NCBI GenBank assembly: GCA_937880875.1 | Contig: CALGRI010000465.1 | Location: 1 to 41,624, forward strand | Direction: 5' to 3' | Length of the DNA: 41,624 nt | Source: an uncultured Pseudomonadota bacterium | GTDB taxonomy: Bacteria > Desulfobacterota > Desulfobacteria > Desulfobacterales > Desulfobacteraceae | Shown here: positions 56-19,373 of the stretch, piece by piece | Numbering within the stretch: position 1 is the first letter of the stretch | How the letters are laid out: each line of letters begins with the position of its first letter | Program-made: the position numbers and the translations under genes | The notes under the pieces: generated by a model | Databases searched by the model: none | Told to the model about the DNA's origin: nothing | The model's input: the letters and a program-made list of their open reading frames with translations, nothing else

Positions 56-78
56 GAAACGAGGACTGGAAAAAGGTC

Positions 79-1116
79 ATGATAACAGATAAAAAGGGAT
101 TATATCTATCGGGTATCAATAAAACCTATGGGCAAGTAGAAGCAGTCAAGGACGTTACCCTTGAAATAAAATCAGGGGAATTCTTTACCCTGCTGGGTCC
201 TTCCGGCTGTGGCAAAACAACATTGCTGCGCATGATCGCCGGTCTGGAGCTCCAGGATTCAGGCAGCGTAATCCTGGAAGATCAGGATATCACCAGACTG
301 CCCGCCATTAAACGACAGATCAATACCGTTTTCCAGAGCTATGCGCTTTTTCCCCACCTCAATATTTTTGAAAATATTGCCTTTGGGCTTCGTTCCAGAA
401 AAATCCCAGAAAAAGAAATAAAAACCAGGGTTCAGAAATCTCTGGATATGCTTGAGCTTGGAAGCATGCCCAAACGGTATCCCCATCAGCTTTCCGGCGG
501 TCAGAACCAGCGGGTGGCACTTGCCCGCGCCCTGGTAAACGAACCCAAGGTGCTGTTGCTGGATGAACCCATGTCAGCCCTGGATGCCAAATTACGGGCC
601 CAGGTTCAGGTAGAGCTCCGACGGTTGCAGCAAAAACTGGGGCAGACCTTTATACTGGTTACCCATGATCAGGATGAAGCCCTTGTGGTGTCTGATCGGA
701 TTGCGGTAATGAAGGATGGAGAAATCATTCAGTTCGGTACGCCGGAAGAGGTTTATGATTTTCCCAAAAATAAATTTGTTGCAGAATTTTTAGGGGCAGC
801 AAATCTGCTTGCCGGCAGATTCCATGACGGGGTGTTCCATACGGATATCGGCCCCCTTGATCTGGACGTACCGCCTCCCTGGGAACACGGCGTTATTGCG
901 ATCAGGCCTGAATGGATAAACGTTCTGGATACAAAACCGGATAAAAATGGTATCCGGGCAAAGGTCAGCGAGATCATTTACCGCGGCACAAACCGGGATC
1001 TCTGGTTTGAACCCGGCCCGATAAGGGTCAGGAGCAGTACCTATAAGCACTTTAAAATTGGAGATGAACTCTGGCTGGAACTGGCACCAAAAGAACTGGT
1101 GGTGCTCAATGAATAG
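79..1116 (+). CDS. potA: Polyamine ABC transporter ATPase PotA (copy 1)
   Basis: This is the ATP-hydrolysing subunit of a spermidine/putrescine-type importer, acting at the inner face of the cytoplasmic membrane. The 345-residue protein has Walker [10 protein letters not shown] at residues 40-48, the ABC signature [15 protein letters not shown], Walker B VLLLDEP followed by the D-loop SALD, and the switch histidine in [11 protein letters not shown]-terminal TOBE-like region follows (about residues 240-345). The length is typical of PotA (about 350-380). ATG follows a GGACTGGAAAAAGG stretch. It is first in potABCD-aguAB and overlaps potB. Because agmatine-degrading genes follow directly, agmatine or putrescine is the likely cargo; this is inferred from context, as the ATPase does not define substrate. 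Identical to 13397-14434. Confidence 0.93.
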
Positions 1117-2014
1117 GCTGATGATCTGGTATGGCGAGCTGCTTTCCCAGAAGAAGCTCATCAAAAGAGGGGCCTTGTTCCTGAGTCCGGGCATGTTGTG
1201 GTTGATAATTTTCCTGATACTTCCGGGTTTGATACTGATCCTTGTCAGCTTTGCCGGCAGGGGAGCTTATGGCGAACTGGTCTGGGAGTTTGGCCTGGAG
1301 AATTATAAACGGCTCATGGGGTTTGGTATATTCGGATGGACCCCGGACTATATCATTATTCTTCTGCGCTCTGTATGGGTGGCCTTTGTCACCACAGGCT
1401 TAGCCGTTGTGCTCTCTTATCCGCTGTGTTTTTTTATCGCACGAAAGCCTGAAAGAACCCGGTATATCTGGCTGATGATAGTGATTATCCCCTTCTGGAC
1501 CAATATGGTCATCAGAACCTACTCCTGGTTTTTGATTTTAGCCCCGGAACTGCCATTTGCCAAACTGGCAGCATATTTTAAAATTATCTCGCCGGGAATG
1601 GCCCTTTATCCCAGCGCCTTTGCCGTTTATCTGGGGATGATTTCCATGTTTCTGCCCTTTGTAGCCCTGCCGCTTTTTTCAAGTGTTGAACGTCTGGACT
1701 GGACCCTGGTTGAAGCAGCACAGGATCTGTATTCGTCAAACACACGAATTTTCATGCATGCCATTTTACCCCAGACCCTGCCCGGGCTTTCTGTTGGCAT
1801 TATTCTGACCTTTGTTCCTGCCATGGGAATGTTTGTTGTTCCGGACCTTCTGGGAGGAGCAAAATATATGCTTGTGGGAAATCTGATTCAACAGCAGTTT
1901 GGTGCCAGCCGAGACTGGGCCTTTGGTGCGGCAATCAGCATGGCGTTAATGGTATTGACCATGGTCAGTCTTTATTTGTATAGAAGAAAAAACAAAGGTA
2001 TGGAGTTGTTATGA
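1109..2014 (+). CDS. potB: Polyamine ABC permease PotB (copy 1)
   Basis: Membrane permease of the PotB/PotH type with about six hydrophobic spans, 301 residues from the chosen start. I chose ATG at 1109 (MNRLMIWYG) over an upstream in-frame ATG at 1058. It overlaps the potA stop by 8 bp, and the upstream alternative would add residues coded inside potA. The binding-protein-dependent permease EAA-like loop is seen as [15 protein letters not shown] followed by ILPQTLPG, the site that contacts the ATPase. The early segment [14 protein letters not shown] is the first membrane span. Its stop overlaps the potC start (ATGA), consistent with translational coupling and one complex. Identical to 14427-15332. 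Confidence 0.92.
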
Positions 2015-2811
2015 GAAAGATTAATCTGATTATTAATATAATGGCTTTTGGGACCATGGGGTTTTTGTATCTTCCGCTGATGGCTGTGGCATTTTTTTCC
2101 GTGAATAATACAAAATACGGCCTTGCCTGGAAGGGATTTACACTTGACTGGTATATACAGCTGTTTCACAACGAGGTGATCCTTCAGGCGGCCTGGAACA
2201 CACTGATTCTGGCTGTTGTATCCACCCTTGTTTCCACTGTTCTTGGGACCGCGCTTGCAATAGGCATGGACCGGTTTCCCTGGCCCAGAAAAATGAACAC
2301 AGTTCTGGATCTTACTCTTCACCTTCCCGTGATCATACCGGATATCATCCTTGCGGCAGCTCTGGTGGTTGCGTTTGGATTTCTGCGGGGCGTATCATCA
2401 TTGTTTGAACCGGGTCTCTTCAGTATGATCATTGGCCACATTACCTTTCAGGTGGCATTTGTAGCACTTGTGGTCAGAAGCCGTCTTGTCAGCATCGGAA
2501 AAGACATTGAAGAAGCAGCAAGGGATCTGTATGCAAGCACTTCTTATCTTTTATGGAAAATCACCCTGCCCTTATTGATGCCAGGCATTGTTGCCGGTGC
2601 CATGCTTGCCTTTACCTTGTCTCTTGATGACTTTGTAATCAGTTTTTTTACAGCTGGCCCAGACTCGGTAACCCTTCCATTGTATATTTTTGCAGCAGTA
2701 AGACGAGTTGTAACCCCGCAGATTCATGCGCTGTCAACCCTGGTTTTATTTGCCACGATACTTCTTGTGGGTGTCATGGAACGGTTTACAAGGAAAATTA
2801 ATACAAAATAG
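2011..2811 (+). CDS. potC: Polyamine ABC permease PotC (copy 1)
   Basis: Second permease of the importer, 266 residues, the usual PotC/PotI length. The hydrophobic start MAFGTMGFLYLPLMAVAFF is followed by further spans. The ATPase-contact loop reads IEEAARDLYASTSYLLWKI then LPLLMPGI, and FTLSLDDFVISFF matches the conserved late region of PotC proteins. It starts at the ATGA overlap with potB and is followed, 48 bp after its stop, by the binding-protein gene. With PotB it forms the membrane channel of the complex. Identical to 15329-16129. Confidence 0.93.
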   Translation: MRKINLIINIMAFGTMGFLYLPLMAVAFFSVNNTKYGLAWKGFTLDWYIQLFHNEVILQAAWNTLILAVVSTLVSTVLGTALAIGMDRFPWPRKMNTVLDLTLHLPVIIPDIILAAALVVAFGFLRGVSSLFEPGLFSMIIGHITFQVAFVALVVRSRLVSIGKDIEEAARDLYASTSYLLWKITLPLLMPGIVAGAMLAFTLSLDDFVISFFTAGPDSVTLPLYIFAAVRRVVTPQIHALSTLVLFATILLVGVMERFTRKINTK

Positions 2812-2859
2812 ATATTGTTTAAACGTTGCGATAATAACCAAACGATTAAGGAGGATGAA

Positions 2860-3912
2860 ATGAAAAAATTATTGTTAATGGCTATTGTATTATTTGTTTT
2901 TTTATCAGGAACCGCATGGTGCGGGAGCGGCGAATTGAAAATATTTACATGGTCTGAATACATGGATGAAGTCAATTTTCCAAAGGAATTTGAAAAAGCC
3001 ACGGGTATCAAAGTGAGTCTGGATCTGTATGAATCAAATGAAGATATGATGGCGAAACTGCAATCCGGCGGATTGGGGCAATATGACATTATTATCCCAT
3101 CAGACTATATTATGCCAAGCCTTATTCAGTTAAATATGCTAACGCCCCTTGACCACTCAAAAATACCCAATTTGAAAAACCTGAGTAAAAAGTTTGCCAG
3201 CCCGGTTTTTGATCCGGGCAATAAATATTCAGCCGGGTGGCAGTGGGGAACGGTTGGATTGATGTATAACAAGAAAAAATTAAGCCCGGCAGATGTTGAG
3301 TCCTGGTCCATTATATTTGATCCCGAAAAAAAACCAGGAACCTTTTATCTGATTGATTCTGTCAGGGAAATGCTGGGGATCACCCTGCTGTATCTGGGAT
3401 ATGATTTTAACTCCATCAACCCGAAAGAACTGAAAGAGGCTGCCGATCTTCTTGTCAGCACAAAGAAGAGAGAAGCCTGTCTGGGATTTAAAGGTGGTGT
3501 GGGTGGTAAAAACGATGTTATTTCCGGAACAGCTGCTGCTGCACTGGTTTACAATGGCGATGCCGTTCAGACCGTTGCCGAAGATCCGGATACCTATGGT
3601 TTTATCGTGCCAAAGGAAGGCAGCGCCATATGGATAGACTCCATGTGTATCCCTGCCAAAGCCCCAAACCTGGATTCTGCACACAAGTGGATCAACTGGG
3701 TTCTGGATGCCAAAGTAGGTGCCGAGCTTTCAAATTATAATCATTTTGCAACACCCAATGCAGCGGCCATGCCCTATCTTTCCAAAGAAGACCTGAATAA
3801 CCCGGGTGTATGGCCCACCCCGGAAATTATTGAAACTTTAAGATTTGTAAAAGACCTTGGGAAAGACAATCATATTGCCGACCAGGCATGGACAAGGGCA
3901 AAGTCCCATTAA
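2860..3912 (+). CDS. potD: Periplasmic polyamine-binding protein PotD (copy 1)
   Basis: Extracytoplasmic solute-binding protein that delivers polyamine to PotBC, 350 residues. ATG at 2860 is chosen because AAGGAGGATGAA directly precedes it and it begins a typical signal peptide (MKKLLLMAIVLFVFLSGTAW). An upstream in-frame TTG at 2815 would prepend a hydrophilic stretch. The mature protein opens with LKIFTWSEYMD and contains YESNEDMMAKL and YDIIIPSDYIM, hallmarks of the PotD/PotF family. Later WQWGTVGLMYNKK and YNGDAV are also family-like. Whether agmatine, putrescine or spermidine is bound cannot be told from sequence; the adjacent aguA-aguB favours agmatine. Identical to 16178-17230. Confidence 0.92.
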   Translation: MKKLLLMAIVLFVFLSGTAWCGSGELKIFTWSEYMDEVNFPKEFEKATGIKVSLDLYESNEDMMAKLQSGGLGQYDIIIPSDYIMPSLIQLNMLTPLDHSKIPNLKNLSKKFASPVFDPGNKYSAGWQWGTVGLMYNKKKLSPADVESWSIIFDPEKKPGTFYLIDSVREMLGITLLYLGYDFNSINPKELKEAADLLVSTKKREACLGFKGGVGGKNDVISGTAAAALVYNGDAVQTVAEDPDTYGFIVPKEGSAIWIDSMCIPAKAPNLDSAHKWINWVLDAKVGAELSNYNHFATPNAAAMPYLSKEDLNNPGVWPTPEIIETLRFVKDLGKDNHIADQAWTRAKSH

Positions 3913-3985
3913 CGATTATGATTCAAACATGATGGCGGCCAAGATGTATTGCCGCCATCATGTTATTTTTGAGGGGAAAAAATCT

Positions 3986-5080
3986 ATGTCCAGAATATTG
4001 GGGACAACGCCAAGACAGGATGGTTTCAGGATGCCGGGTGAGTTTGAGCCCCATGAAAAATGCTGGATGCTGTGGCCTGAACGACCGGACAATTGGCGGT
4101 TGAATGCAGTACCTGCCCAGAACGTATTTTCCCTGGTTGCCCAGGCCATATCCCGGTTTGAACCCGTGGCCATGGGAGTATCCAAACACCAGATTGAAAC
4201 TGCCCAAAACAGCCTGCCATCTGAAATTGAAATTGTTCACATTGAATCAGATGATTCGTGGATGAGGGATACAGGACCCACATTTGTTAAAAATGATAGC
4301 AATGAAGTCCGGGGGGTGGACTGGGATTTTAATGCCTGGGGCGGGCTTAACGGAGGGATATATTTCCCATGGGATAAAGACATCTGTGTGGCCAAAGAAG
4401 TTTTGAAACATGGAAAAATAGACCGGTATAAAGCTTGTATTATCCTTGAAGGCGGTGCCATCCATACGGATGGTGAAGGCACATTAATTACAACAGAAGA
4501 GTGCCTGTTGAACCCTAACCGGAATCCGGATCTTTCAAAGACCCAGATAGAAAACCATTTAAAAGAATATTTGAATGTAGAAAAAATCATCTGGCTGGGA
4601 AAAGGGGTGTTCATGGATGAGACAGACGGCCATGTGGACAACCTGTGCTGCTTTACAAGGCCCGGAGAAGTCCTGCTTCACTGGACAGATGACAAGACAG
4701 ATCCCCAGTATGAAATATCCTGTGATGCCTTTGACAGGCTCTCAGGTTCTGTTGATGCAAAAGGCAGAAAAATAAAAATTCATAAAATCCATCAGCCCGG
4801 CCCATTGTATATGACCGAGGCGGAAAGCCTGGGGATTGAAAAAAAGCCCAATGTCGCACCAAGGAACGATGGGAACAGGCTGGCGGCATCCTATGTGAAT
4901 TTTTATATTGCCAATAATGGTATTGTCATGCCTTTATTTGATGATCCCCATGATAAAGCTGCCATGGAAAAAATAAAAAGCCTTTTCCCGGAGAGAATTG
5001 TGGTGGGTATCTATGCCCGGGAAATACTTCTCGGGGGAGGAAATATCCATTGTATCACCCAGCAGCAGCCAGGTGTTTAA
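3986..5080 (+). CDS. aguA: Agmatine deiminase AguA (copy 1)
   Basis: Hydrolyses agmatine to N-carbamoylputrescine and ammonia in the cytoplasm. The family is the Porphyromonas-type peptidyl-arginine deiminase/agmatine deiminase (PAD_porph) guanidino-modifying superfamily. The start at 3986 (MSRILGTTPRQDGF) follows GAGGGGAAAAAATCT and gives 364 residues, the normal AguA length; a start at 3857 would overlap potD by 56 bp and is rejected. The substrate/catalytic elements DSWMRDTGP, EGGAIHTDG, FMDETDGHVDN and the catalytic Cys356 in GGGNIHCITQQQP are all present. It lies 73 bp after potD and 81 bp before aguB, so import and first degradation step are in one operon. Identical to 17304-18398. Confidence 0.95.
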   Translation: MSRILGTTPRQDGFRMPGEFEPHEKCWMLWPERPDNWRLNAVPAQNVFSLVAQAISRFEPVAMGVSKHQIETAQNSLPSEIEIVHIESDDSWMRDTGPTFVKNDSNEVRGVDWDFNAWGGLNGGIYFPWDKDICVAKEVLKHGKIDRYKACIILEGGAIHTDGEGTLITTEECLLNPNRNPDLSKTQIENHLKEYLNVEKIIWLGKGVFMDETDGHVDNLCCFTRPGEVLLHWTDDKTDPQYEISCDAFDRLSGSVDAKGRKIKIHKIHQPGPLYMTEAESLGIEKKPNVAPRNDGNRLAASYVNFYIANNGIVMPLFDDPHDKAAMEKIKSLFPERIVVGIYAREILLGGGNIHCITQQQPGV

Positions 5081-5161
5081 ACATGAACGCATATTGTCTG
5101 AGGACATATTGCCTGAGGACATACTGGTGGATATGATCGGTTAAAACAAGGAGAAAAAACC

Positions 5162-6055
5162 ATGTCAACGGTTTGGGTTGCTGCCACCCAGATGGCCTGC
5201 ACAACGGATCGCGATCAGAATATCTTGACTGCGGAAAAACTGGTTCAAGAGGCGGCCCAAAAAGGTGCCCAGATTGTGTTGCTTCAGGAGCTTTTTGAAA
5301 ATCTTTATTTCTGCCAGGAGGAAAAGGCCGAGCATTTCAATCTGGCAAGCACTTTAGAAGAGAATAGAGCGGTCAAACATTTTAGTACCATTGCAAAAAA
5401 ATTAAATATTGTATTGCCCATCAGTTTCTTTGAAAAAAAGAACAATGCCCATTACAATACCACTGCCGTGATTGATGCCGACGGAAGCATACTGGGAATT
5501 TACAGAAAATGTCATATACCCGACGGTCCCGGGTATGAGGAAAAATTCTATTTTAATCCTGGGGATACGGGTTTCAAGGTATGGCAGACAAAATATGCGT
5601 GTATCGGTGTGGGCATCTGCTGGGATCAGTGGTTCCCGGAAGCAGCCAGGATCATGGCGTTAAAAGGCGCTGAGATTATTTTTTATCCCACAGCCATTGG
5701 ATCAGAGCCTGCCAATGGTGCCCTGGATTCAAAGGAGCACTGGCAAACCTGCATGCAGGGACACGCTGCCTGCAATATGATCCCGGTTGTGGCATCCAAC
5801 AGGATCGGTACGGAATCATTTGATAGATCCAGCATCAGCTTTTACGGATCATCCTTTATCACAGACAACATGGGCCGTATTCTCACCCAGGCCAACCGGA
5901 CAGATGAAGCCGTGATCCTTTCAAATTTTGATCTTGAACAATTTAAGATCCAGAGAGCTTCATGGGGACTTTTCAGAGACAGAAGACCTTCCCAGTACAG
6001 GATCTTGCTCACAAGTGGTGGTGAAAACAATGGGCCTGTCTATGATCCGGAATAA
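5162..6055 (+). CDS. aguB: N-carbamoylputrescine amidase AguB (copy 1)
   Basis: Nitrilase-superfamily amidase converting N-carbamoylputrescine to putrescine, CO2 and ammonia. The 297-residue length is standard. The catalytic triad is visible: Glu43 in LLQELFENLYFC, Lys116 in YRKCHIPDGPGY and Cys153 in GVGICWDQWFPE. AAGGAGAAAAAACC precedes ATG. It completes the agmatine-to-putrescine route begun by aguA. The protein is identical to the second copy except near the C-terminus (GPVYDPE here, GPAGDPE at 18480-19373), where the long repeat stops matching. Confidence 0.95.
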   Translation: MSTVWVAATQMACTTDRDQNILTAEKLVQEAAQKGAQIVLLQELFENLYFCQEEKAEHFNLASTLEENRAVKHFSTIAKKLNIVLPISFFEKKNNAHYNTTAVIDADGSILGIYRKCHIPDGPGYEEKFYFNPGDTGFKVWQTKYACIGVGICWDQWFPEAARIMALKGAEIIFYPTAIGSEPANGALDSKEHWQTCMQGHAACNMIPVVASNRIGTESFDRSSISFYGSSFITDNMGRILTQANRTDEAVILSNFDLEQFKIQRASWGLFRDRRPSQYRILLTSGGENNGPVYDPE

Positions 6056-8062: not shown

Positions 8063-9370
8063 ATGACGTCAATAAGCCAGGAACTCAATGAACGAAGAAA
8101 AAAAAGTGTCCCCCAGGGTCCGTTTAATACAACCAGCGCCTTTATCAAAAAGGCGCAAGGGGCAAGTATGACAGATGTGGATGGAAAAACCTATATTGAT
8201 TTTGCGGGCGGGATTGGTGTTAACAATGTAGGACACTGCCATCCAAAAGTGGTTCAAGCCATAAAGGATCAGGCAGATTTATATATTCACACCTGTTTTC
8301 ATGTTGCCATGTATGAACCTTATGTCGCGCTTGCCGAACGATTAAATGCTCTGGCACCCGGAGCCTTTGAAAAAATGACCCTGTTTGCGAACTCAGGTGC
8401 CGAGGCCGTTGAAAATGCTGTAAAAATATCCCGGTATGCCACTAAACGCAGCGGTATTATCTGTTTTGACAATGCATTTCATGGCAGGACCCAACTGGCC
8501 ATGAGCCTCACCAGTAAAGTAAAACCATATAAATTCAATTTCGGACCGTTTGTGCCGGAAATTTACAGAATGCCCTATGCCTATTGCTATCGATGCCCCT
8601 TTAACTTGAAATATCCCTCCTGTGAAACAGCCTGTGCTGATTATCTTGAAGAGTTCTTTATTGGCAATGTTGCCCCTGAAAACACGGCAGCCGTTATTGC
8701 AGAACCGATCCAGGGAGAAGGCGGATTTATTACCCCCCCGCCTGAGTATTTTCCAAAACTTCAAAAAATATGTGCCAAATATGACATTTCCCTGATCATT
8801 GATGAAATTCAGTCGGGTGCCGGAAGAACGGGCAAGTTTTTTGCTATAGAACACTGGGGGGTGGAACCGGATATAATCACCCTTGCAAAAAGTTTTGCCG
8901 GCGGCATGCCATTAAGTGCTGTGATTGGACGGAAAGAACTGATGGAAGCCCCACATGTAGGTGGCCTTGGGGGGACATATGGTGGCAACCCGCTATCCTG
9001 CAGAGCAGCCCTCGCTGTCCTGGAAATATTGTTTGACGATGGGCTCTTAAAAACCGCTCAAAGCCTTGGAGAAATCCTGCTGGAAAGATTTACTTCCCTT
9101 CAGAAAGATCATGAAATAATCGGTGAAGTCAGGGGAAAGGGTCCCATGCTGGGCTTGGAACTGGTCCAGGACAGAATAACCAAAGAGCCTGCCACTGAAA
9201 AGGCTAAAAAACTGGTCCAGCTCTGTTATGAAAAGGGGTTGTTCATATTGTCCTGTGGAAATTATGGCAATATTATCAGAACGCTCATGCCCCTTGTGAT
9301 AACGACAGAAGAGCTTGACAAAGGGCTTTCAATCCTTGAAGAAAGCTTCTATGAAGTGGAAAAACAATAA
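8063..9370 (+). CDS. gabT: 4-aminobutyrate (GABA) transaminase, class III
   Basis: PLP-dependent class III aminotransferase, 435 residues, closely resembling GabT from memory: an N-terminal ELNERRKKSVPQG, DFAGGIGVNNVGHCHPKV, NSGAEAVENAVKISRYATKR, IAEPIQGEGGF, IDEIQSGAGRTGKFF, and GGLGGTYGGNPLSC. The Schiff-base lysine is Lys276 in TLAKSFAGG. A cysteine-bearing insert (YCYRCPF, then PSCETAC) is notable and absent from E. coli GabT. Expected reaction: GABA + 2-oxoglutarate to succinate semialdehyde + glutamate. AGGAG precedes ATG. It is first in the gabT-fusion-ferredoxin operon, 16 bp before the fusion gene, whose product would make GABA. Another omega-amine substrate cannot be excluded. Confidence 0.85.
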   Translation: MTSISQELNERRKKSVPQGPFNTTSAFIKKAQGASMTDVDGKTYIDFAGGIGVNNVGHCHPKVVQAIKDQADLYIHTCFHVAMYEPYVALAERLNALAPGAFEKMTLFANSGAEAVENAVKISRYATKRSGIICFDNAFHGRTQLAMSLTSKVKPYKFNFGPFVPEIYRMPYAYCYRCPFNLKYPSCETACADYLEEFFIGNVAPENTAAVIAEPIQGEGGFITPPPEYFPKLQKICAKYDISLIIDEIQSGAGRTGKFFAIEHWGVEPDIITLAKSFAGGMPLSAVIGRKELMEAPHVGGLGGTYGGNPLSCRAALAVLEILFDDGLLKTAQSLGEILLERFTSLQKDHEIIGEVRGKGPMLGLELVQDRITKEPATEKAKKLVQLCYEKGLFILSCGNYGNIIRTLMPLVITTEELDKGLSILEESFYEVEKQ

Positions 9371-9386: not shown

Positions 9387-12300
9387 ATGATCGACTTAGA
9401 AGAATATCATCCCGATGATTATAAACTCAGGGATATCAAAGCGGCTAAAAAAGAAGTGGATGAAATCATTGAAATCATCCTTAAGCCGACAAAAGAAATA
9501 TCTCTTGAAATCAGACAGGAGATGTCGAGAAAAACAGTTCGAAACTTCCGGGATCATATTAATAAGGGTTTTCTTGAGTATCGAAAATCAGTAACCGAAG
9601 CAACCGGATTTGCCGTCACTGAATGGACAGGACAGGGCTCCGTCCTTGTGGATGCACTGGACAGGGAATTTCTTGACCTTTTGGGTGGATTTGGTCTTTA
9701 TTCCTATGGCATCCGCCATCCCAAAATTGTAGCCGCGGTAAAAGCCCAGCTGGATAGATCTCCCCAATACAGCCAGGAAATGCTGGACCCCTTAAGGGCG
9801 CAGCTGGCAAAAATACTGGCATTGCTGACACCCGGTAAAATCCAGTATGGATTTTTTGCCAATTCAGGAACCGAAGCCGTGGAAGGTGCCATGAAGCTGG
9901 CCAAGCTTTACACAGGCCGCAAAGGGTTTATTTCCATGCTCAGAGGGTTTCACGGGAAAACGCTGGGAGCTCTTTCCCTGATGGGCAAAAGGATGTTCAG
10001 ACAGCCTTTGCTGCCGCTTCTTGACGGCGTCAGACAGATCCCGTTTGGCGACCTTGCCGCTCTTGAACAGGAATTGGCATCTGCCAGGACGGTTGGTGAT
10101 GATATTGCAGCGGTTGTGGTTGAGCCGATTCAGGGTGAAGCCGGTGCCATTGTACCGCCGGATGATTACCTGCCGGGCGTTCGTGAGATTTGCGATCATT
10201 ATGGGGTGCTTTTAATCGCTGACGAAGTACAGACCGGATTTGGACGAACCGGTAAAATATTTGGTGTGGATCACTGGAATGTGAAACCCGACATCATGTG
10301 TTTTGGCAAGGCTCTGGGCGGTGGTGTCGTGCCCATGTCAGCTTTCATGTCAACACCCAAAATCTGGAAATGCCTGGAACCCAACCCCTTTATGCATACC
10401 ACCACCACGGGTGGCAACCCCCTTGCCTGTGCCTCTGCCCTTGCCGCTATCTCCGTTCTTCTGGACGAAGATCTTGCAGACCAGGCCAAACAAAAGGGCG
10501 AATATGTTCTTGAAAAATTAGGAGACCTCCAGGAACGGTATCCAGGAATCCTGGCCCATAAAAGAGGACTTGGACTTCTTCTGGGCATGGAATTTCACAC
10601 GGATGGTATCGGGTACAAGGTGGCATCAGGTTTGTTTTCAAGGGGGGTGATCACAGCCGGGACCCTTACCAATTCAAAGAACATCCGGTTTGAACCCGCC
10701 TTGAACGTGCCCTGGGAAATTCTTGATGAATGCCTGAACCGGATAGAAGATGTCTTTAAATCCATTGAGCTTCCAAAGGGGAAACCAAATGAATACCTTT
10801 ATACCGGGCAGGTCCTTCATGTGGATTTGACCAAAAAAGAGATTCAGTCCAAGACAATCCCCCAGAACCTTCGTACCCAATATATTGGCGGATGGGGACT
10901 TGCCGTAAAATATCTCTATGATTTGATTGATCCAAAGGTTGATCCCCTGTCACCGGAAAATGCCTTTGTAATCATGACAGGGCCTGTGTGTGGAACGCTT
11001 GTGCCCACATCCGCCCGCACCTGTCTGGTATCTAAATCACCCAAAACCGGAACGATTTTTGAATCCAATATTGGCGGTTCCTTTGGGCCGGAACTCAAAT
11101 TTGCCGGATATGACGGCATTGTTGTAACCGGGAAAGCTGACAAGCCTGTCTATCTTAAAATTGAAGATAATGTAGTCACCCTGGAAGATGCGGCACCTTT
11201 GGTGGGTAAAGGGATTTTTGAAACAGAAGCATGGCTCAAAAACAAAATTGATTTTGATATCAAGACCCTTTCCATTGGTCCTGCAGGTGAAAATTTGATC
11301 GAGTTTGCCTGTGTCGGGTCTGAATCATACCGGCAGATGGGACGCGGGGGTGCCGGGGCATTGTTTGGCGCTAAGAATTTAAAAGCAATTGCCGTCCGGG
11401 GAACGGGCGGCGTCCAGGTCAATGAAATGGGGGCATTTTATGAAAAAGTGGTTGAACATACAACGGAGAATTTTCTCACCAACGATAATATGTGGGCGTA
11501 TCATCACGGCACGGCCATGCTGGTGGATGTTACCAATGAAATGGGAATTCATCCCACTAGAAATTTTTCAAAGGGCGTGAGCAACGGCCGTCTGAGCCTG
11601 AATGCCGAGGCCATAGATGATATAAAAATCGGTGACCGCTCATGTGCTTCCTGTCCCATGGGATGCGGAAAGTTTACTTCCCTTAACGGCACCCAGATGG
11701 AAGGCCCGGAATATGAGACCCTTTGTCTGGGAGGGTCAAACTGCGAGATTCATAATCTTGAAGCCGTCATGAAATTCAACCGGCTCTGTGATGATTATGG
11801 CCTTGATACCATGTCAACGGGTAATATCATCGGTCTTGCCATGGACATAACTGAATCCAGTCTCCATGACTATGGTATCCGGTTTGGCAATGCAGAAGAA
11901 TATCTTTGTTTAATAGAAGAAATCGCCATGGGATCTACACAACGCGGAAAAGACCTGGCCCTGGGCGCCAAAAAACTGGCTGCAAAACATGGTGCCGAGG
12001 ATATGGCAGCCCATGCTAAAAATCTTGAAATGCCGGCTTATGACCCCCGTGGCAACTATGGAATGGCTCTGGGATATGCCACGTCCGAGCGGGGCGCGTG
12101 CCACTTAAGATCCTTTACGCTTTTTGAAGATGAACCCTTTAAGGTCAAAGAGATGACCCAGGCAGTTATGAAAAATCAGAATATTAATGCTGTCAAATGG
12201 TCCATGGGTCTTTGCGATTTCTGGGGGACAGTGGATACATCCATTATGGCGGATTTTATGACAAAGGGACTGGGCAAAAAAATATCAGGCCGGGATCTGG

Positions 12301-12551
12301 AAAAGGCCGGGGAAAGAATATGGAATCTTACACGGCTGTTCAACTTAAAGGCCGGATTTACGGCTGCTGATGACACCATTTCAGATAGACTCCTTAATAA
12401 AGCACTGGAAAACGGCCCCTATGAAGGCAAGAAATTTGACCTTAAGGCTCTGGCTCAGATGAAGGCCCTTCTGTATCACTTAAGGGGATGGGATACTGAA
12501 GGACGACCCCTTGAGAAAAAGCTTGAAGAACTGGATCTTTTGGATGCCTGA
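9387..12551 (+). CDS. Putrescine aminotransferase-aldehyde:ferredoxin oxidoreductase fusion
   Basis: Single 1054-residue frame with two complete enzymes. Residues 1 to about 462 match E. coli PatA-type putrescine aminotransferase (HINKGFLEYRKSVT, SQEMLDPLRAQLAKILALL, FFANSGTEAVEGAMKLAK, PIQGEAGAIVPP, HTTTTGGNPLACASALA), with PLP lysine Lys308 in CFGKALGGG. From about residue 470 a full AOR follows (about 585 residues, normal family size). It has GGWGLAVKYL, GPAGENLIEFA, 4Fe-4S ligands Cys753/756/760 in CASCPMGC with Cys943 in MGLCDF, EGPEYE at 772-777, GLDTMSTGN, and YDPRGNYG with His906. Expected chemistry: putrescine transaminated to 4-aminobutanal, then oxidised by a tungstopterin centre to GABA with reduction of ferredoxin. 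No signal peptide, so cytoplasmic. GABA transaminase precedes and a polyferredoxin follows. The substrate assignment is inferred from PatA similarity and context. Confidence 0.9.
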   Translation: MIDLEEYHPDDYKLRDIKAAKKEVDEIIEIILKPTKEISLEIRQEMSRKTVRNFRDHINKGFLEYRKSVTEATGFAVTEWTGQGSVLVDALDREFLDLLGGFGLYSYGIRHPKIVAAVKAQLDRSPQYSQEMLDPLRAQLAKILALLTPGKIQYGFFANSGTEAVEGAMKLAKLYTGRKGFISMLRGFHGKTLGALSLMGKRMFRQPLLPLLDGVRQIPFGDLAALEQELASARTVGDDIAAVVVEPIQGEAGAIVPPDDYLPGVREICDHYGVLLIADEVQTGFGRTGKIFGVDHWNVKPDIMCFGKALGGGVVPMSAFMSTPKIWKCLEPNPFMHTTTTGGNPLACASALAAISVLLDEDLADQAKQKGEYVLEKLGDLQERYPGILAHKRGLGLLLGMEFHTDGIGYKVASGLFSRGVITAGTLTNSKNIRFEPALNVPWEILDECLNRIEDVFKSIELPKGKPNEYLYTGQVLHVDLTKKEIQSKTIPQNLRTQYIGGWGLAVKYLYDLIDPKVDPLSPENAFVIMTGPVCGTLVPTSARTCLVSKSPKTGTIFESNIGGSFGPELKFAGYDGIVVTGKADKPVYLKIEDNVVTLEDAAPLVGKGIFETEAWLKNKIDFDIKTLSIGPAGENLIEFACVGSESYRQMGRGGAGALFGAKNLKAIAVRGTGGVQVNEMGAFYEKVVEHTTENFLTNDNMWAYHHGTAMLVDVTNEMGIHPTRNFSKGVSNGRLSLNAEAIDDIKIGDRSCASCPMGCGKFTSLNGTQMEGPEYETLCLGGSNCEIHNLEAVMKFNRLCDDYGLDTMSTGNIIGLAMDITESSLHDYGIRFGNAEEYLCLIEEIAMGSTQRGKDLALGAKKLAAKHGAEDMAAHAKNLEMPAYDPRGNYGMALGYATSERGACHLRSFTLFEDEPFKVKEMTQAVMKNQNINAVKWSMGLCDFWGTVDTSIMADFMTKGLGKKISGRDLEKAGERIWNLTRLFNLKAGFTAADDTISDRLLNKALENGPYEGKKFDLKALAQMKALLYHLRGWDTEGRPLEKKLEELDLLDA

Positions 12552-12599: not shown

Positions 12600-13145
12600 A
12601 TGGAAAAATTACTTTTGGCCATCCCTAATAGATGCACGGGATGTAATCGATGTACATATGTTTGTTCAGCTCTAAAAGAGGGGATGTTTATACCCTCTAA
12701 GGCCAGAATAAAAATCAATAATTTTGCCCACCAGGGATATTCAGTGCCCAGCATTTGTTTTCAGTGCCCCGGCGCAGACTGCATGAAAGCCTGTCCCGAA
12801 GGCGCCATCATTAAAAACGAAAGGGGGGTTATTGCCATTAATATCAAGAAATGCACCAAATGCGGTGACTGCGTTGAAGCATGCCCCTACGGGATGATGG
12901 AGCAGTATGACTCTGGGATGCCTTACAAGTGTGATCTTTGTGGCGGCAGTCCGGCATGCATAGAAGAGTGCAATTTTGGTGCACTTGTGTTCAAGGAATC
13001 AGACACCATATCCCGAAAACAAAGGGCCCAGCAGATGAAACAACGAAGTACGCAGGGCTCCCCTCGGTCCAAGCGTCATGAACTGGCTGTCAATATTCTT
13101 GACCAGGCGGTCAGAGTACCCCGCACATCAGGATATCTGGGGTAA
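12600..13145 (+). CDS. Four-cluster [4Fe-4S] ferredoxin-type electron-transfer subunit
   Basis: 181 residues with sixteen cysteines in four [4Fe-4S] motifs: Cys12/15/18/22, Cys53/56/61/65, Cys85/88/91/95 and Cys111/114/120/124. The arrangement matches the HycB/DmsB-like iron-sulfur subunits often encoded beside aldehyde:ferredoxin oxidoreductases. No Tat or Sec signal is present, so it should act in the cytoplasm. The C-terminal 45 residues are basic and lack cysteines. It starts 48 bp after the fusion gene, with AAGGAA upstream, and ends the operon. It is the likely electron acceptor of the AOR domain, or a relay from it to ferredoxin or a membrane complex. Confidence 0.88.
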   Translation: MEKLLLAIPNRCTGCNRCTYVCSALKEGMFIPSKARIKINNFAHQGYSVPSICFQCPGADCMKACPEGAIIKNERGVIAINIKKCTKCGDCVEACPYGMMEQYDSGMPYKCDLCGGSPACIEECNFGALVFKESDTISRKQRAQQMKQRSTQGSPRSKRHELAVNILDQAVRVPRTSGYLG

Positions 13146-13216: not shown

Positions 13217-13373
13217 TAATTAGTGCCTGACCGAAAACCCCGTGTTTGGGCGAAAAGTTGCCCATATACAAGGCGCAAAAAATCTTGAAACCGGAGTGTA
13301 CTACTGTACATGAGGATTTCAGGATTTTGCAGCAACGCAGTAGATGGGTGAGTTTTCGTTCAAACACTAATTA
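13217..13373. repeat. Palindromic MITE-like intergenic element
   Basis: A large imperfect palindrome. The outer inverted repeat TAATTAGTG/CACTAATTA is at 13217-13225 and 13365-13373. The inner arms GTGTTTGGGCGAAAA... (13242-13265) and its partner (13344-13367) share most positions. Further in, AAATCTTGAAACC pairs with GGATTTCAGGATTT, and the centre is GTGTACTACTGTACAT. No open frame is present, so it would be a non-autonomous element or a structured intergenic repeat. It sits between the ferredoxin gene and the second potA, and the left limit of the repeat visible in this window falls inside it. Confidence 0.7.
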
Positions 13374-13396
13374 GAAACGAGGACTGGAAAAAGGTC

Positions 13397-14434
13397 ATGA
13401 TAACAGATAAAAAGGGATTATATCTATCGGGTATCAATAAAACCTATGGGCAAGTAGAAGCAGTCAAGGACGTTACCCTTGAAATAAAATCAGGGGAATT
13501 CTTTACCCTGCTGGGTCCTTCCGGCTGTGGCAAAACAACATTGCTGCGCATGATCGCCGGTCTGGAGCTCCAGGATTCAGGCAGCGTAATCCTGGAAGAT
13601 CAGGATATCACCAGACTGCCCGCCATTAAACGACAGATCAATACCGTTTTCCAGAGCTATGCGCTTTTTCCCCACCTCAATATTTTTGAAAATATTGCCT
13701 TTGGGCTTCGTTCCAGAAAAATCCCAGAAAAAGAAATAAAAACCAGGGTTCAGAAATCTCTGGATATGCTTGAGCTTGGAAGCATGCCCAAACGGTATCC
13801 CCATCAGCTTTCCGGCGGTCAGAACCAGCGGGTGGCACTTGCCCGCGCCCTGGTAAACGAACCCAAGGTGCTGTTGCTGGATGAACCCATGTCAGCCCTG
13901 GATGCCAAATTACGGGCCCAGGTTCAGGTAGAGCTCCGACGGTTGCAGCAAAAACTGGGGCAGACCTTTATACTGGTTACCCATGATCAGGATGAAGCCC
14001 TTGTGGTGTCTGATCGGATTGCGGTAATGAAGGATGGAGAAATCATTCAGTTCGGTACGCCGGAAGAGGTTTATGATTTTCCCAAAAATAAATTTGTTGC
14101 AGAATTTTTAGGGGCAGCAAATCTGCTTGCCGGCAGATTCCATGACGGGGTGTTCCATACGGATATCGGCCCCCTTGATCTGGACGTACCGCCTCCCTGG
14201 GAACACGGCGTTATTGCGATCAGGCCTGAATGGATAAACGTTCTGGATACAAAACCGGATAAAAATGGTATCCGGGCAAAGGTCAGCGAGATCATTTACC
14301 GCGGCACAAACCGGGATCTCTGGTTTGAACCCGGCCCGATAAGGGTCAGGAGCAGTACCTATAAGCACTTTAAAATTGGAGATGAACTCTGGCTGGAACT
14401 GGCACCAAAAGAACTGGTGGTGCTCAATGAATAG
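13397..14434 (+). CDS. potA: Polyamine ABC transporter ATPase PotA (copy 2)
   Basis: Identical in sequence to the copy at 79-1116 (345 residues; Walker [10 protein letters not shown] at 40-48, LSGGQNQR signature, Walker B VLLLDEP). Unlike copy 1, its full upstream DNA is visible. It follows the ferredoxin gene by 251 bp, with the palindromic element in between. Read-through from the gabT-fusion-ferredoxin operon is therefore possible unless that element terminates transcription. Confidence 0.93.
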
Positions 14435-15332
14435 GCTGATGATCTGGTATGGCGAGCTGCTTTCCCAGAAGAAGCTCATCAAAAGAGGGGCCTTGTTCCT
14501 GAGTCCGGGCATGTTGTGGTTGATAATTTTCCTGATACTTCCGGGTTTGATACTGATCCTTGTCAGCTTTGCCGGCAGGGGAGCTTATGGCGAACTGGTC
14601 TGGGAGTTTGGCCTGGAGAATTATAAACGGCTCATGGGGTTTGGTATATTCGGATGGACCCCGGACTATATCATTATTCTTCTGCGCTCTGTATGGGTGG
14701 CCTTTGTCACCACAGGCTTAGCCGTTGTGCTCTCTTATCCGCTGTGTTTTTTTATCGCACGAAAGCCTGAAAGAACCCGGTATATCTGGCTGATGATAGT
14801 GATTATCCCCTTCTGGACCAATATGGTCATCAGAACCTACTCCTGGTTTTTGATTTTAGCCCCGGAACTGCCATTTGCCAAACTGGCAGCATATTTTAAA
14901 ATTATCTCGCCGGGAATGGCCCTTTATCCCAGCGCCTTTGCCGTTTATCTGGGGATGATTTCCATGTTTCTGCCCTTTGTAGCCCTGCCGCTTTTTTCAA
15001 GTGTTGAACGTCTGGACTGGACCCTGGTTGAAGCAGCACAGGATCTGTATTCGTCAAACACACGAATTTTCATGCATGCCATTTTACCCCAGACCCTGCC
15101 CGGGCTTTCTGTTGGCATTATTCTGACCTTTGTTCCTGCCATGGGAATGTTTGTTGTTCCGGACCTTCTGGGAGGAGCAAAATATATGCTTGTGGGAAAT
15201 CTGATTCAACAGCAGTTTGGTGCCAGCCGAGACTGGGCCTTTGGTGCGGCAATCAGCATGGCGTTAATGGTATTGACCATGGTCAGTCTTTATTTGTATA
15301 GAAGAAAAAACAAAGGTATGGAGTTGTTATGA
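14427..15332 (+). CDS. potB: Polyamine ABC permease PotB (copy 2)
   Basis: Identical to 1109-2014: 301-residue permease with about six spans and the ATPase-contact loop [15 protein letters not shown]. Start chosen at ATG 14427, overlapping the potA stop by 8 bp; its stop overlaps potC. Confidence 0.92.
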
Positions 15333-16129
15333 GAAAGATTAATCTGATTATTAATATAATGGCTTTTGGGACCATGGGGTTTTTGTATCTTCCGCTGATG
15401 GCTGTGGCATTTTTTTCCGTGAATAATACAAAATACGGCCTTGCCTGGAAGGGATTTACACTTGACTGGTATATACAGCTGTTTCACAACGAGGTGATCC
15501 TTCAGGCGGCCTGGAACACACTGATTCTGGCTGTTGTATCCACCCTTGTTTCCACTGTTCTTGGGACCGCGCTTGCAATAGGCATGGACCGGTTTCCCTG
15601 GCCCAGAAAAATGAACACAGTTCTGGATCTTACTCTTCACCTTCCCGTGATCATACCGGATATCATCCTTGCGGCAGCTCTGGTGGTTGCGTTTGGATTT
15701 CTGCGGGGCGTATCATCATTGTTTGAACCGGGTCTCTTCAGTATGATCATTGGCCACATTACCTTTCAGGTGGCATTTGTAGCACTTGTGGTCAGAAGCC
15801 GTCTTGTCAGCATCGGAAAAGACATTGAAGAAGCAGCAAGGGATCTGTATGCAAGCACTTCTTATCTTTTATGGAAAATCACCCTGCCCTTATTGATGCC
15901 AGGCATTGTTGCCGGTGCCATGCTTGCCTTTACCTTGTCTCTTGATGACTTTGTAATCAGTTTTTTTACAGCTGGCCCAGACTCGGTAACCCTTCCATTG
16001 TATATTTTTGCAGCAGTAAGACGAGTTGTAACCCCGCAGATTCATGCGCTGTCAACCCTGGTTTTATTTGCCACGATACTTCTTGTGGGTGTCATGGAAC
16101 GGTTTACAAGGAAAATTAATACAAAATAG
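15329..16129 (+). CDS. potC: Polyamine ABC permease PotC (copy 2)
   Basis: Identical to 2011-2811: 266-residue permease with loop IEEAARDLYASTSYLLWKI. ATGA overlap with potB indicates coupled translation. Confidence 0.93.
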   Translation: MRKINLIINIMAFGTMGFLYLPLMAVAFFSVNNTKYGLAWKGFTLDWYIQLFHNEVILQAAWNTLILAVVSTLVSTVLGTALAIGMDRFPWPRKMNTVLDLTLHLPVIIPDIILAAALVVAFGFLRGVSSLFEPGLFSMIIGHITFQVAFVALVVRSRLVSIGKDIEEAARDLYASTSYLLWKITLPLLMPGIVAGAMLAFTLSLDDFVISFFTAGPDSVTLPLYIFAAVRRVVTPQIHALSTLVLFATILLVGVMERFTRKINTK

Positions 16130-16177
16130 ATATTGTTTAAACGTTGCGATAATAACCAAACGATTAAGGAGGATGAA

Positions 16178-17230
16178 ATGAAAAAATTATTGTTAATGGC
16201 TATTGTATTATTTGTTTTTTTATCAGGAACCGCATGGTGCGGGAGCGGCGAATTGAAAATATTTACATGGTCTGAATACATGGATGAAGTCAATTTTCCA
16301 AAGGAATTTGAAAAAGCCACGGGTATCAAAGTGAGTCTGGATCTGTATGAATCAAATGAAGATATGATGGCGAAACTGCAATCCGGCGGATTGGGGCAAT
16401 ATGACATTATTATCCCATCAGACTATATTATGCCAAGCCTTATTCAGTTAAATATGCTAACGCCCCTTGACCACTCAAAAATACCCAATTTGAAAAACCT
16501 GAGTAAAAAGTTTGCCAGCCCGGTTTTTGATCCGGGCAATAAATATTCAGCCGGGTGGCAGTGGGGAACGGTTGGATTGATGTATAACAAGAAAAAATTA
16601 AGCCCGGCAGATGTTGAGTCCTGGTCCATTATATTTGATCCCGAAAAAAAACCAGGAACCTTTTATCTGATTGATTCTGTCAGGGAAATGCTGGGGATCA
16701 CCCTGCTGTATCTGGGATATGATTTTAACTCCATCAACCCGAAAGAACTGAAAGAGGCTGCCGATCTTCTTGTCAGCACAAAGAAGAGAGAAGCCTGTCT
16801 GGGATTTAAAGGTGGTGTGGGTGGTAAAAACGATGTTATTTCCGGAACAGCTGCTGCTGCACTGGTTTACAATGGCGATGCCGTTCAGACCGTTGCCGAA
16901 GATCCGGATACCTATGGTTTTATCGTGCCAAAGGAAGGCAGCGCCATATGGATAGACTCCATGTGTATCCCTGCCAAAGCCCCAAACCTGGATTCTGCAC
17001 ACAAGTGGATCAACTGGGTTCTGGATGCCAAAGTAGGTGCCGAGCTTTCAAATTATAATCATTTTGCAACACCCAATGCAGCGGCCATGCCCTATCTTTC
17101 CAAAGAAGACCTGAATAACCCGGGTGTATGGCCCACCCCGGAAATTATTGAAACTTTAAGATTTGTAAAAGACCTTGGGAAAGACAATCATATTGCCGAC
17201 CAGGCATGGACAAGGGCAAAGTCCCATTAA
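16178..17230 (+). CDS. potD: Periplasmic polyamine-binding protein PotD (copy 2)
   Basis: Identical to 2860-3912: 350 residues with Sec signal peptide, LKIFTWSEYMD near the mature N-terminus and YDIIIPSDYIM. Because no residue differs, the two copies cannot have diverged in substrate preference; any benefit would be dosage or separate regulation. Confidence 0.92.
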   Translation: MKKLLLMAIVLFVFLSGTAWCGSGELKIFTWSEYMDEVNFPKEFEKATGIKVSLDLYESNEDMMAKLQSGGLGQYDIIIPSDYIMPSLIQLNMLTPLDHSKIPNLKNLSKKFASPVFDPGNKYSAGWQWGTVGLMYNKKKLSPADVESWSIIFDPEKKPGTFYLIDSVREMLGITLLYLGYDFNSINPKELKEAADLLVSTKKREACLGFKGGVGGKNDVISGTAAAALVYNGDAVQTVAEDPDTYGFIVPKEGSAIWIDSMCIPAKAPNLDSAHKWINWVLDAKVGAELSNYNHFATPNAAAMPYLSKEDLNNPGVWPTPEIIETLRFVKDLGKDNHIADQAWTRAKSH

Positions 17231-17303
17231 CGATTATGATTCAAACATGATGGCGGCCAAGATGTATTGCCGCCATCATGTTATTTTTGAGGGGAAAAAA
17301 TCT

Positions 17304-18398
17304 ATGTCCAGAATATTGGGGACAACGCCAAGACAGGATGGTTTCAGGATGCCGGGTGAGTTTGAGCCCCATGAAAAATGCTGGATGCTGTGGCCTGAAC
17401 GACCGGACAATTGGCGGTTGAATGCAGTACCTGCCCAGAACGTATTTTCCCTGGTTGCCCAGGCCATATCCCGGTTTGAACCCGTGGCCATGGGAGTATC
17501 CAAACACCAGATTGAAACTGCCCAAAACAGCCTGCCATCTGAAATTGAAATTGTTCACATTGAATCAGATGATTCGTGGATGAGGGATACAGGACCCACA
17601 TTTGTTAAAAATGATAGCAATGAAGTCCGGGGGGTGGACTGGGATTTTAATGCCTGGGGCGGGCTTAACGGAGGGATATATTTCCCATGGGATAAAGACA
17701 TCTGTGTGGCCAAAGAAGTTTTGAAACATGGAAAAATAGACCGGTATAAAGCTTGTATTATCCTTGAAGGCGGTGCCATCCATACGGATGGTGAAGGCAC
17801 ATTAATTACAACAGAAGAGTGCCTGTTGAACCCTAACCGGAATCCGGATCTTTCAAAGACCCAGATAGAAAACCATTTAAAAGAATATTTGAATGTAGAA
17901 AAAATCATCTGGCTGGGAAAAGGGGTGTTCATGGATGAGACAGACGGCCATGTGGACAACCTGTGCTGCTTTACAAGGCCCGGAGAAGTCCTGCTTCACT
18001 GGACAGATGACAAGACAGATCCCCAGTATGAAATATCCTGTGATGCCTTTGACAGGCTCTCAGGTTCTGTTGATGCAAAAGGCAGAAAAATAAAAATTCA
18101 TAAAATCCATCAGCCCGGCCCATTGTATATGACCGAGGCGGAAAGCCTGGGGATTGAAAAAAAGCCCAATGTCGCACCAAGGAACGATGGGAACAGGCTG
18201 GCGGCATCCTATGTGAATTTTTATATTGCCAATAATGGTATTGTCATGCCTTTATTTGATGATCCCCATGATAAAGCTGCCATGGAAAAAATAAAAAGCC
18301 TTTTCCCGGAGAGAATTGTGGTGGGTATCTATGCCCGGGAAATACTTCTCGGGGGAGGAAATATCCATTGTATCACCCAGCAGCAGCCAGGTGTTTAA
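17304..18398 (+). CDS. aguA: Agmatine deiminase AguA (copy 2)
   Basis: Identical to 3986-5080: 364 residues with DSWMRDTGP, ETDGHVDN and catalytic Cys356 in GGGNIHCITQQQP. Start at 17304 for the same ribosome-binding-site reason as copy 1. Confidence 0.95.
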   Translation: MSRILGTTPRQDGFRMPGEFEPHEKCWMLWPERPDNWRLNAVPAQNVFSLVAQAISRFEPVAMGVSKHQIETAQNSLPSEIEIVHIESDDSWMRDTGPTFVKNDSNEVRGVDWDFNAWGGLNGGIYFPWDKDICVAKEVLKHGKIDRYKACIILEGGAIHTDGEGTLITTEECLLNPNRNPDLSKTQIENHLKEYLNVEKIIWLGKGVFMDETDGHVDNLCCFTRPGEVLLHWTDDKTDPQYEISCDAFDRLSGSVDAKGRKIKIHKIHQPGPLYMTEAESLGIEKKPNVAPRNDGNRLAASYVNFYIANNGIVMPLFDDPHDKAAMEKIKSLFPERIVVGIYAREILLGGGNIHCITQQQPGV

Positions 18399-18479
18399 AC
18401 ATGAACGCATATTGTCTGAGGACATATTGCCTGAGGACATACTGGTGGATATGATCGGTTAAAACAAGGAGAAAAAACC

Positions 18480-19373
18480 ATGTCAACGGTTTGGGTTGCT
18501 GCCACCCAGATGGCCTGCACAACGGATCGCGATCAGAATATCTTGACTGCGGAAAAACTGGTTCAAGAGGCGGCCCAAAAAGGTGCCCAGATTGTGTTGC
18601 TTCAGGAGCTTTTTGAAAATCTTTATTTCTGCCAGGAGGAAAAGGCCGAGCATTTCAATCTGGCAAGCACTTTAGAAGAGAATAGAGCGGTCAAACATTT
18701 TAGTACCATTGCAAAAAAATTAAATATTGTATTGCCCATCAGTTTCTTTGAAAAAAAGAACAATGCCCATTACAATACCACTGCCGTGATTGATGCCGAC
18801 GGAAGCATACTGGGAATTTACAGAAAATGTCATATACCCGACGGTCCCGGGTATGAGGAAAAATTCTATTTTAATCCTGGGGATACGGGTTTCAAGGTAT
18901 GGCAGACAAAATATGCGTGTATCGGTGTGGGCATCTGCTGGGATCAGTGGTTCCCGGAAGCAGCCAGGATCATGGCGTTAAAAGGCGCTGAGATTATTTT
19001 TTATCCCACAGCCATTGGATCAGAGCCTGCCAATGGTGCCCTGGATTCAAAGGAGCACTGGCAAACCTGCATGCAGGGACACGCTGCCTGCAATATGATC
19101 CCGGTTGTGGCATCCAACAGGATCGGTACGGAATCATTTGATAGATCCAGCATCAGCTTTTACGGATCATCCTTTATCACAGACAACATGGGCCGTATTC
19201 TCACCCAGGCCAACCGGACAGATGAAGCCGTGATCCTTTCAAATTTTGATCTTGAACAATTTAAGATCCAGAGAGCTTCATGGGGACTTTTCAGAGACAG
19301 AAGACCTTCCCAGTACAGGATCTTGCTCACAAGTGGTGGTGAAAACAATGGGCCTGCCGGTGATCCGGAATAA
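18480..19373 (+). CDS. aguB: N-carbamoylputrescine amidase AguB (copy 2)
   Basis: 297 residues, same Glu43/Lys116/Cys153 triad as copy 1. It differs only in two residues near the C-terminus (GPAGDPE versus GPVYDPE), caused by three base differences at 19357-19360. The change is outside the catalytic core, so function should be equal. No DUF2889 gene follows it. Confidence 0.95.
   Translation: MSTVWVAATQMACTTDRDQNILTAEKLVQEAAQKGAQIVLLQELFENLYFCQEEKAEHFNLASTLEENRAVKHFSTIAKKLNIVLPISFFEKKNNAHYNTTAVIDADGSILGIYRKCHIPDGPGYEEKFYFNPGDTGFKVWQTKYACIGVGICWDQWFPEAARIMALKGAEIIFYPTAIGSEPANGALDSKEHWQTCMQGHAACNMIPVVASNRIGTESFDRSSISFYGSSFITDNMGRILTQANRTDEAVILSNFDLEQFKIQRASWGLFRDRRPSQYRILLTSGGENNGPAGDPE

Follow-up and report, generated by a model that had tools for sequence, protein, structure and literature searches.

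An in-frame fusion of a PatA-type aminotransferase with an aldehyde:ferredoxin oxidoreductase, a candidate bifunctional enzyme of putrescine catabolism

The stretch of DNA analysed here – hereafter called the window – is a contig of 41,624 nucleotides (CALGRI010000465.1, assembly GCA_937880875.1) belonging to a 528-contig metagenome-assembled genome (MAG) of the Desulfobacteraceae. On its forward strand, positions 9387–12551 form a single, stop-free open frame of 1054 residues, in which a complete PatA half (a putrescine aminotransferase type), a linker of about ten residues and a complete half of the aldehyde:ferredoxin oxidoreductase (AOR)/WOR family follow one another. The encoded protein is very likely a bifunctional enzyme of putrescine catabolism, which would convert putrescine via 4-aminobutanal to γ-aminobutyric acid (GABA). 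We infer the reactions of both halves from family membership and gene context; the metal, the complex with a neighbouring iron–sulphur protein, the final electron acceptor and a possible direct hand-over of the aldehyde from one site to the other we infer as well.

Three Pfam domains were recognised in the frame: Aminotran_3 (E = 1.5e-93), AFOR_N (E = 1.1e-75, profile positions 1–199 of 199) and AFOR_C (E = 3.4e-107, profile positions 2–385 of 385), both AOR domains being complete. The original prediction, made from the letters of the window, had proposed one 1054-residue frame joining a complete PatA-type aminotransferase to a complete AOR, and had named a stop or frameshift near 10776–10800 as the observation that would separate two genes; open frame and domains agree with the proposal, and such an interruption is excluded by in-frame copies elsewhere, including those in G057 (an assembly of two contigs) and in G150 and G254 (single contigs). 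In an alignment of 19 complete fusions – the set used for residue counts and trees throughout, leaving out the incomplete copies G040/L011, G199/L106 and G138/L107 and the cut copy G233/L108 – mean column identity is 81%, and the linker is variable in sequence and varies in length by at most one residue. Separate translation of the AOR half from an internal start was considered and seems unlikely: the 19 copies share no start codon close to the junction, an absence that argues against such a start, and the L095 copy has no start codon at all within the 40 codons examined there.

Of the 22 distinct genomes in which the fusion is found in frame, 21 belong to the window's order and one (G739) lies outside it; one further copy, cut at residue 778, is present in G233. 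Within the window's family, eight of the 86 genomes searched carry it, the window's own included; the other seven copies are 84–96% identical, one of them (G040) being cut at a contig edge. The order sample of 389 genomes holds 20 carriers – the G040 and G199 copies starting at contig edges and the G138 copy late in the frame – and the phylum sample of 395 genomes holds three, including G739; the class sample mostly overlaps that of the order and contributed no additional genome. Among the carriers are MAGs of Desulfotignum and Desulfobacula as well as assemblies of one or two contigs (G057, G138, G150, G254). In G739's family just one other genome was searched, and the AOR there is unfused. 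These searches were run at strict E-value limits (1e-150 to 1e-250). A scan of the whole collection with six peptides typical of the window missed 70%-identical copies that were found later, so more distant fusions may exist elsewhere. One match in KSB1 (L017), first taken for a fusion in another phylum, proved to be a GABA transaminase beside an unfused PatA, and no AOR was found on its 6.4-kb contig.

The aminotransferase half of the window protein retains the mapped active-site residues of YgjG, the putrescine aminotransferase of Escherichia coli. The accessible text of the structure paper on that enzyme (PMC4244111) names the residues that contact pyridoxal phosphate (PLP) and putrescine, assigns to Gln119 the holding of the far amino group of putrescine, and describes Lys183, Phe327 and Leu419 as setting YgjG apart from its relatives. 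When the PLP- and putrescine-contacting residues are mapped onto the window protein, 16 of 16 are identical; Gln119, Lys183, Phe327 and Leu419 are all kept, and Lys308 aligns to the PLP lysine, Lys300. Twelve YgjG-site residues were traced across the 19 fusions, and ten of these are invariant, the exceptions being Phe102 (Phe in 16, Tyr in three) and Thr340 (Thr in 18, Pro in one). The same half passes a curated putrescine-aminotransferase model, PRK11522 (NF008570), with 637.5 bits against a cut-off of 612.

In the AOR half, Cys753, Cys756, Cys760 and Cys943 align to Cys288, Cys291, Cys295 and Cys494 of Pyrococcus furiosus AOR, and His906 to His448; the motif EGPEYE spans residues 772–777, its final Glu777 aligning with Glu313 (P. 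furiosus numbering was placed by manual count on the pairwise alignment). The residues singled out from the letters alone – Lys308, the four cysteines, His906 and EGPEYE – were thus all correctly identified, as judged by alignment to YgjG and P. furiosus AOR. According to the main text of a review of tungsten enzymes (PMC12096430), the second-shell residues of AOR are Thr243, Glu313, Tyr427 and His448; their counterparts Thr709, Glu777, Tyr885 and His906 occur in 19 of 19 complete fusions, as do, without change, the PLP lysine, the PLP aspartate and the four cysteines of the [4Fe-4S] cluster. The place of Glu332, which together with His383 makes up the pair of iron-bridging ligands in P. furiosus, is occupied by lysine in the pairwise alignment, and the window's AOR half would accordingly not bear this mark of the P. 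furiosus homodimer subclade.

The gene next after the fusion encodes a 181-residue, AorA-like protein whose closest solved relatives, 9mqx_E and 8c0z_C, each serve as the small subunit of an AOR complex. All its 16 cysteines are invariant in 13 of 13 aligned copies and are expected to hold four [4Fe-4S] clusters. The gene occupies this position, on the same strand and 7–606 bp away, in 22 of 23 fusion loci, and its product, which the original prediction had not mentioned, is probably the first electron acceptor of the fusion. No AorC-like subunit binding flavin and nicotinamide adenine dinucleotides (FAD/NAD) was seen among the annotated genes of the window, the rest of the genome not having been searched.

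The surroundings of the fusion also point to putrescine. In the window, it shares a locus with genes for a polyamine-type importer, for the agmatine-to-putrescine enzymes AguA and AguB and, immediately upstream, for a GABA transaminase (Table 1); in the flanks fetched for the 23 fusion loci, AguA is present in nine, PotA in 12 and GABA transaminase in 11, counts that rest on script identity thresholds and on flanks many of which end at contig ends. A gene of the arginase/agmatinase family lies within loci L100 (fused) and L111 (unfused), the latter scoring slightly under the agmatinase cut-off (160.3 versus 174.3).

Relatives with an unfused PatA bear on the step assigned to the AOR half. In one genus, here labelled g4, PatA is unfused and 69–72% identical, and the main loci have an aldehyde dehydrogenase as the next gene. 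The aminobutyraldehyde dehydrogenase model PRK13473 was searched in 34 genomes, a set that excludes the fusion-copy genomes G163, G199 and G233: it scores over its cut-off in all eight searched g4 genomes with unfused PatA, each time directly beside a PatA gene, in one of 20 searched fusion genomes (G739), in none of five genomes with an unfused PatA and a separate AOR, and not in the one other genome (G262). A separate AOR, of a clade different from the fused one, directly follows unfused PatA in L071, L109, L113 and L114, and in L111 an unfused PatA is followed by an agmatinase-like gene and then by an AOR, which belongs to the sister group of the fused clade and has its Fer4 iron–sulphur partner with it. 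From these neighbours of unfused PatA, AOR seems to take the place of the NAD-dependent dehydrogenase in this pathway. As a separate observation, GABA transaminase adjoins a separate AOR of its own, further clade in L012 (6769–9930), L013, L061, L105, L113 and L114, pairs which suggest that succinic semialdehyde, too, may be handled by AOR in these bacteria.

Taken together, these data suggest the following course. In the PLP half, putrescine would give up one of its amino groups to 2-oxoglutarate or pyruvate as the oxo acid and so become 4-aminobutanal. The AOR half, with a pterin-bound metal (tungsten is expected) and one [4Fe-4S] cluster, would oxidise this aldehyde to GABA early enough to keep most of it from turning into 1-pyrroline. 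Two electrons would pass from the AOR cluster through the four-cluster protein encoded by the next gene and on to ferredoxin or a different carrier of low potential; GABA transaminase would take GABA onward. The route from putrescine to GABA had already been proposed in the original prediction, and it gains support from the PRK11522 match, the YgjG and AOR residues, a locus with AguA, AguB and GABA transaminase, and the relatives described above.

Several observations weigh against this assignment. AORs have broad substrate ranges, and the aldehyde is therefore not readable from the AOR half. The aminotransferase half fails a second curated putrescine-aminotransferase model, TIGR03372 (495.8 versus 658.65), and is for that reason described here as PatA-type rather than as a TIGR03372 equivalog; the two unfused PatA relatives scanned also fall below this cut-off, with 482.3 and 503.3. 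The distribution is patchy, the window's own genus having the fusion in four genomes out of 26, and in G233, a single-contig genome, it is cut at about residue 778 (L108:8012–10546), no iron–sulphur partner gene being found in the 20-kb stretch around it. In G739, a gene for an aminobutyraldehyde dehydrogenase lies about 6.7 kb away from the fusion, and this genome may therefore have a route besides AOR. The eight dehydrogenase-bearing genomes all belong to g4 and are not independent, so the swap between AOR and dehydrogenase represents few independent events; G019, of the same genus, has the fusion and no such dehydrogenase (it is a MAG with 9% contamination). Among the reference-matched open reading frames of L112, L017 and L018, all with unfused PatA, neither an aldehyde dehydrogenase nor an AOR adjoins PatA. 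Finally, the predicted structure of the fusion is too poor to judge the distance between the sites: the AlphaFold2 model, from a 16-row alignment, has a mean predicted local distance difference test (pLDDT) score of 55.6, that of the iron–sulphur protein alone 35.8, and both were left unused.

Within the proposed pathway, the purpose of the covalent link can be read in two ways. The two reactions may quite possibly, if not quite probably, proceed without channelling, the fusion securing no more than a 1:1 ratio and joint expression while 4-aminobutanal or 1-pyrroline is released and rebound. Unfused PatA–AOR neighbours exist and are presumably functional, and the linker is variable in sequence; against this, its length is near-constant in 19 copies and the fusion has been retained across several families, neither of which is proof of channelling. 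More tentatively, and in our estimation rather doubtfully, the fusion and its AorA-like partner could be joined in a single complex, with 4-aminobutanal moving between the PLP and metal sites unreleased and electrons running along a chain of four-cluster subunits – perhaps in a filament, as in Aromatoleum AOR – at ferredoxin potential. If true, this would be a PLP–tungsten channelling enzyme through which anaerobes conserve energy when they break down polyamines.

A different question is whether putrescine is the chief substrate. That further diamines (cadaverine, 1,3-diaminopropane), or amines of another kind, are served as much as putrescine seems unlikely: E. coli YgjG also accepts cadaverine (PMC4244111, accessible text), and the same genome has a paralogous operon of aminotransferase, AOR and Fer4 protein (L073), with a different aminotransferase and beside a polyamine-type transporter, yet AguA/AguB or an arginase/agmatinase-family gene near the fusion in several genomes leads to putrescine. 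Operation in reverse, with AOR reducing GABA to 4-aminobutanal at the expense of reduced ferredoxin and PatA aminating the product to putrescine, is highly improbable; certain AORs do reduce non-activated acids (main text of PMC12096430), but the combination in one locus of an importer, putrescine-producing AguA/AguB and GABA transaminase speaks for breakdown, as does the aminobutyraldehyde dehydrogenase that occupies the same place in relatives. That two genes were joined by a sequencing or assembly error – a thought invited by the fragmented MAG and an exact repeat near the fusion – is refuted, to near certainty, by the occurrence of 19 complete, in-frame copies across different genomes, some of which are assembled in one or two contigs, and by the position of the fusion in unrepeated sequence between the two repeat copies.

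Returning to the fusion as a bifunctional enzyme, its history can be followed in both halves. In the AOR tree, the fused domains form one clade (support 100/99), whose sister comprises unfused AORs likewise adjoined by the iron–sulphur partner gene and including an AOR in the window's own genome that adjoins another aminotransferase (L073). The fused PatA domains group together with weaker support (80/100). The simplest reading of these trees would be that PatA was fused a single time, to an AOR that came with its small subunit, and that the fusion was then inherited, lost in places and to some extent transferred. The median ratio of non-synonymous to synonymous substitution rates (dN/dS) among six fusions (15 pairs) is 0.023 for the aminotransferase region and 0.066 for that of AOR; both values lie far below 1, though dS, at about 2, is saturated; one of the 15 pairs was unusable for the AOR region, three for the linker and five for the N-terminal region.

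Other AORs of these genomes deserve mention. The L073 operon (L073:183–8026, contig C207 of the window's own genome) is an unfused, paralogous set of a polyamine-type ATP-binding cassette (ABC) transporter, an aminotransferase scoring over the GntE model NF041362 (547.8 versus 525), an AOR 58% identical to the fused one and an AorA-like iron–sulphur protein; altogether, about 16 separate loci of this genome match the AOR half. In G057, a 511-residue AOR adjoining the fusion (L056:12628–14163) lacks three cluster cysteines and the catalytic glutamate in the alignment and is probably degenerate. In G086, two tandem AOR–iron–sulphur gene pairs with an extra iron–sulphur gene between them (L115:4469–10657) encode AORs 55–56% identical to the fused one.

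The features of the window are collected in Table 1. Its first 6038 bases (1–6038) recur without a mismatch at 13319–19356, the contig starting inside the repeat; this could reflect a recent duplication or else an assembly repeat. The aldehyde dehydrogenase downstream falls far under the aminobutyraldehyde dehydrogenase cut-off; it appears nearest to the coenzyme A-acylating methylmalonate-semialdehyde dehydrogenase, and its place in the putrescine pathway is uncertain. Further on, at 35167–38438 and 38398–39513, lie two subunits of 2-hydroxyacyl-CoA dehydratase type (HGD-D) with a BcrAD/BadFG ATPase; an LpxR-like outer membrane protein comes after them.

Table 1. Features of the fusion gene and its surroundings in the window
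Feature	Coordinates	Strand	Evidence
PatA–AOR fusion gene, 1054 residues	9387..12551	+	Open frame; three Pfam domains; found in 22 genomes
Class III aminotransferase domain, residues 82–456, putative PLP Lys308	9630..10754	+	Pfam PF00202; NCBIfam PRK11522; YgjG residue match
Short linker, about residues 463–471	10773..10799	+	Alignment of 19 fusions
AOR N-terminal domain, residues 474–673	10806..11405	+	Pfam PF02730
AOR domains 2 and 3, residues 688–1051	11448..12539	+	Pfam PF01314; Thr709, Cys753/756/760/943, Glu777, Tyr885, His906 in 19/19
AorA-like electron-transfer subunit (predicted), 181 residues, 16 Cys	12600..13145	+	Closest solved chains 9mqx_E, 8c0z_C
GABA transaminase	8063..9370	+	TIGR00700 542.8 vs cut-off 506.65; about 17 bp upstream of fusion
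PotABCD-like polyamine-type ABC transporter, copy 1	79..3912	+	Best NCBIfam matches PotA/PotB/PotC/PotD, all below cut-off
Agmatine deiminase AguA, copy 1	3857..5080	+	TIGR03380 582.4 vs 381.8
N-carbamoylputrescine amidase AguB, copy 1	5162..6055	+	TIGR03381 459.6 vs 410.25
Second copy of PotABCD–AguA–AguB	13397..19373	+	1–6038 identical to 13319–19356
Aldehyde dehydrogenase	20551..22083	+	TIGR01722 435.3, under its cut-off of 448.5; PRK13473 261.3 vs 615

The interest of the fusion extends beyond a single gene. Many clades of the AOR/WOR family are known from sequence alone, and the role of AOR often seems to be the detoxification of aldehydes over a wide substrate range (both in the main text of PMC12096430); a covalent tie to a transaminase with a predictable product gives one AOR clade a likely aldehyde, and unfused neighbours of the PatA–AOR and GABA transaminase–AOR kinds suggest the same for further clades. 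The findings also suggest that some anaerobes break down polyamines at ferredoxin potential rather than via NAD(P)H, and the fusion could act as a natural scaffold for amine-to-acid biocatalysis.

The best matches of the aminotransferase half in the PDB are the structures of E. coli PatA/YgjG (4uox, 8cpl; E about 1e-139), with which it shares the PLP- and putrescine-binding residues. Unlike the fusion, YgjG is a stand-alone enzyme, and the step after it is catalysed in E. coli by the NAD(P)-dependent dehydrogenase PatD. Another close counterpart is the arrangement of g4 (in loci such as L062, L063, L064, L066, L068, L069 and L070), which has the Pot-type transporter, PatA, AguA and AguB in common with the window, but in which PatA is unfused and a PRK13473-type dehydrogenase stands in place of AOR.

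With AORs sensu stricto – P. furiosus AOR (1aor), the 9mqx AOR and AorB of Aromatoleum (8c0z) – the AOR half shares a full-length match, the cluster cysteines and the four second-shell residues, whereas its fusion to an aminotransferase and the lysine at the Glu332 place distinguish it. An AorA-like iron–sulphur partner is common to the 8c0z and 9mqx complexes and to the fusion loci, so that the resemblance to AorABC of Aromatoleum extends to the four-cluster partner gene.

The original prediction knew of no described PatA–AOR fusion, and we likewise found no paper on one in the open-licence literature, which omits most subscription papers; the words fusion, fused and aminotransferase are all absent from the main text of PMC12096430. 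We judge the bifunctional architecture to be new, both enzyme families being known and the union of a transaminase with a redox enzyme having a precedent in PtTamH. Going by the accessible text on that protein (PMC9594044), both are natural fusions of a transaminase and a redox enzyme, their two steps being linked by an aldehyde, yet PtTamH, which pairs the transaminase with an NADH-dependent thioester reductase, is biosynthetic (acyl thioester to aldehyde to amine), draws on another redox family and acts on fatty substrates.

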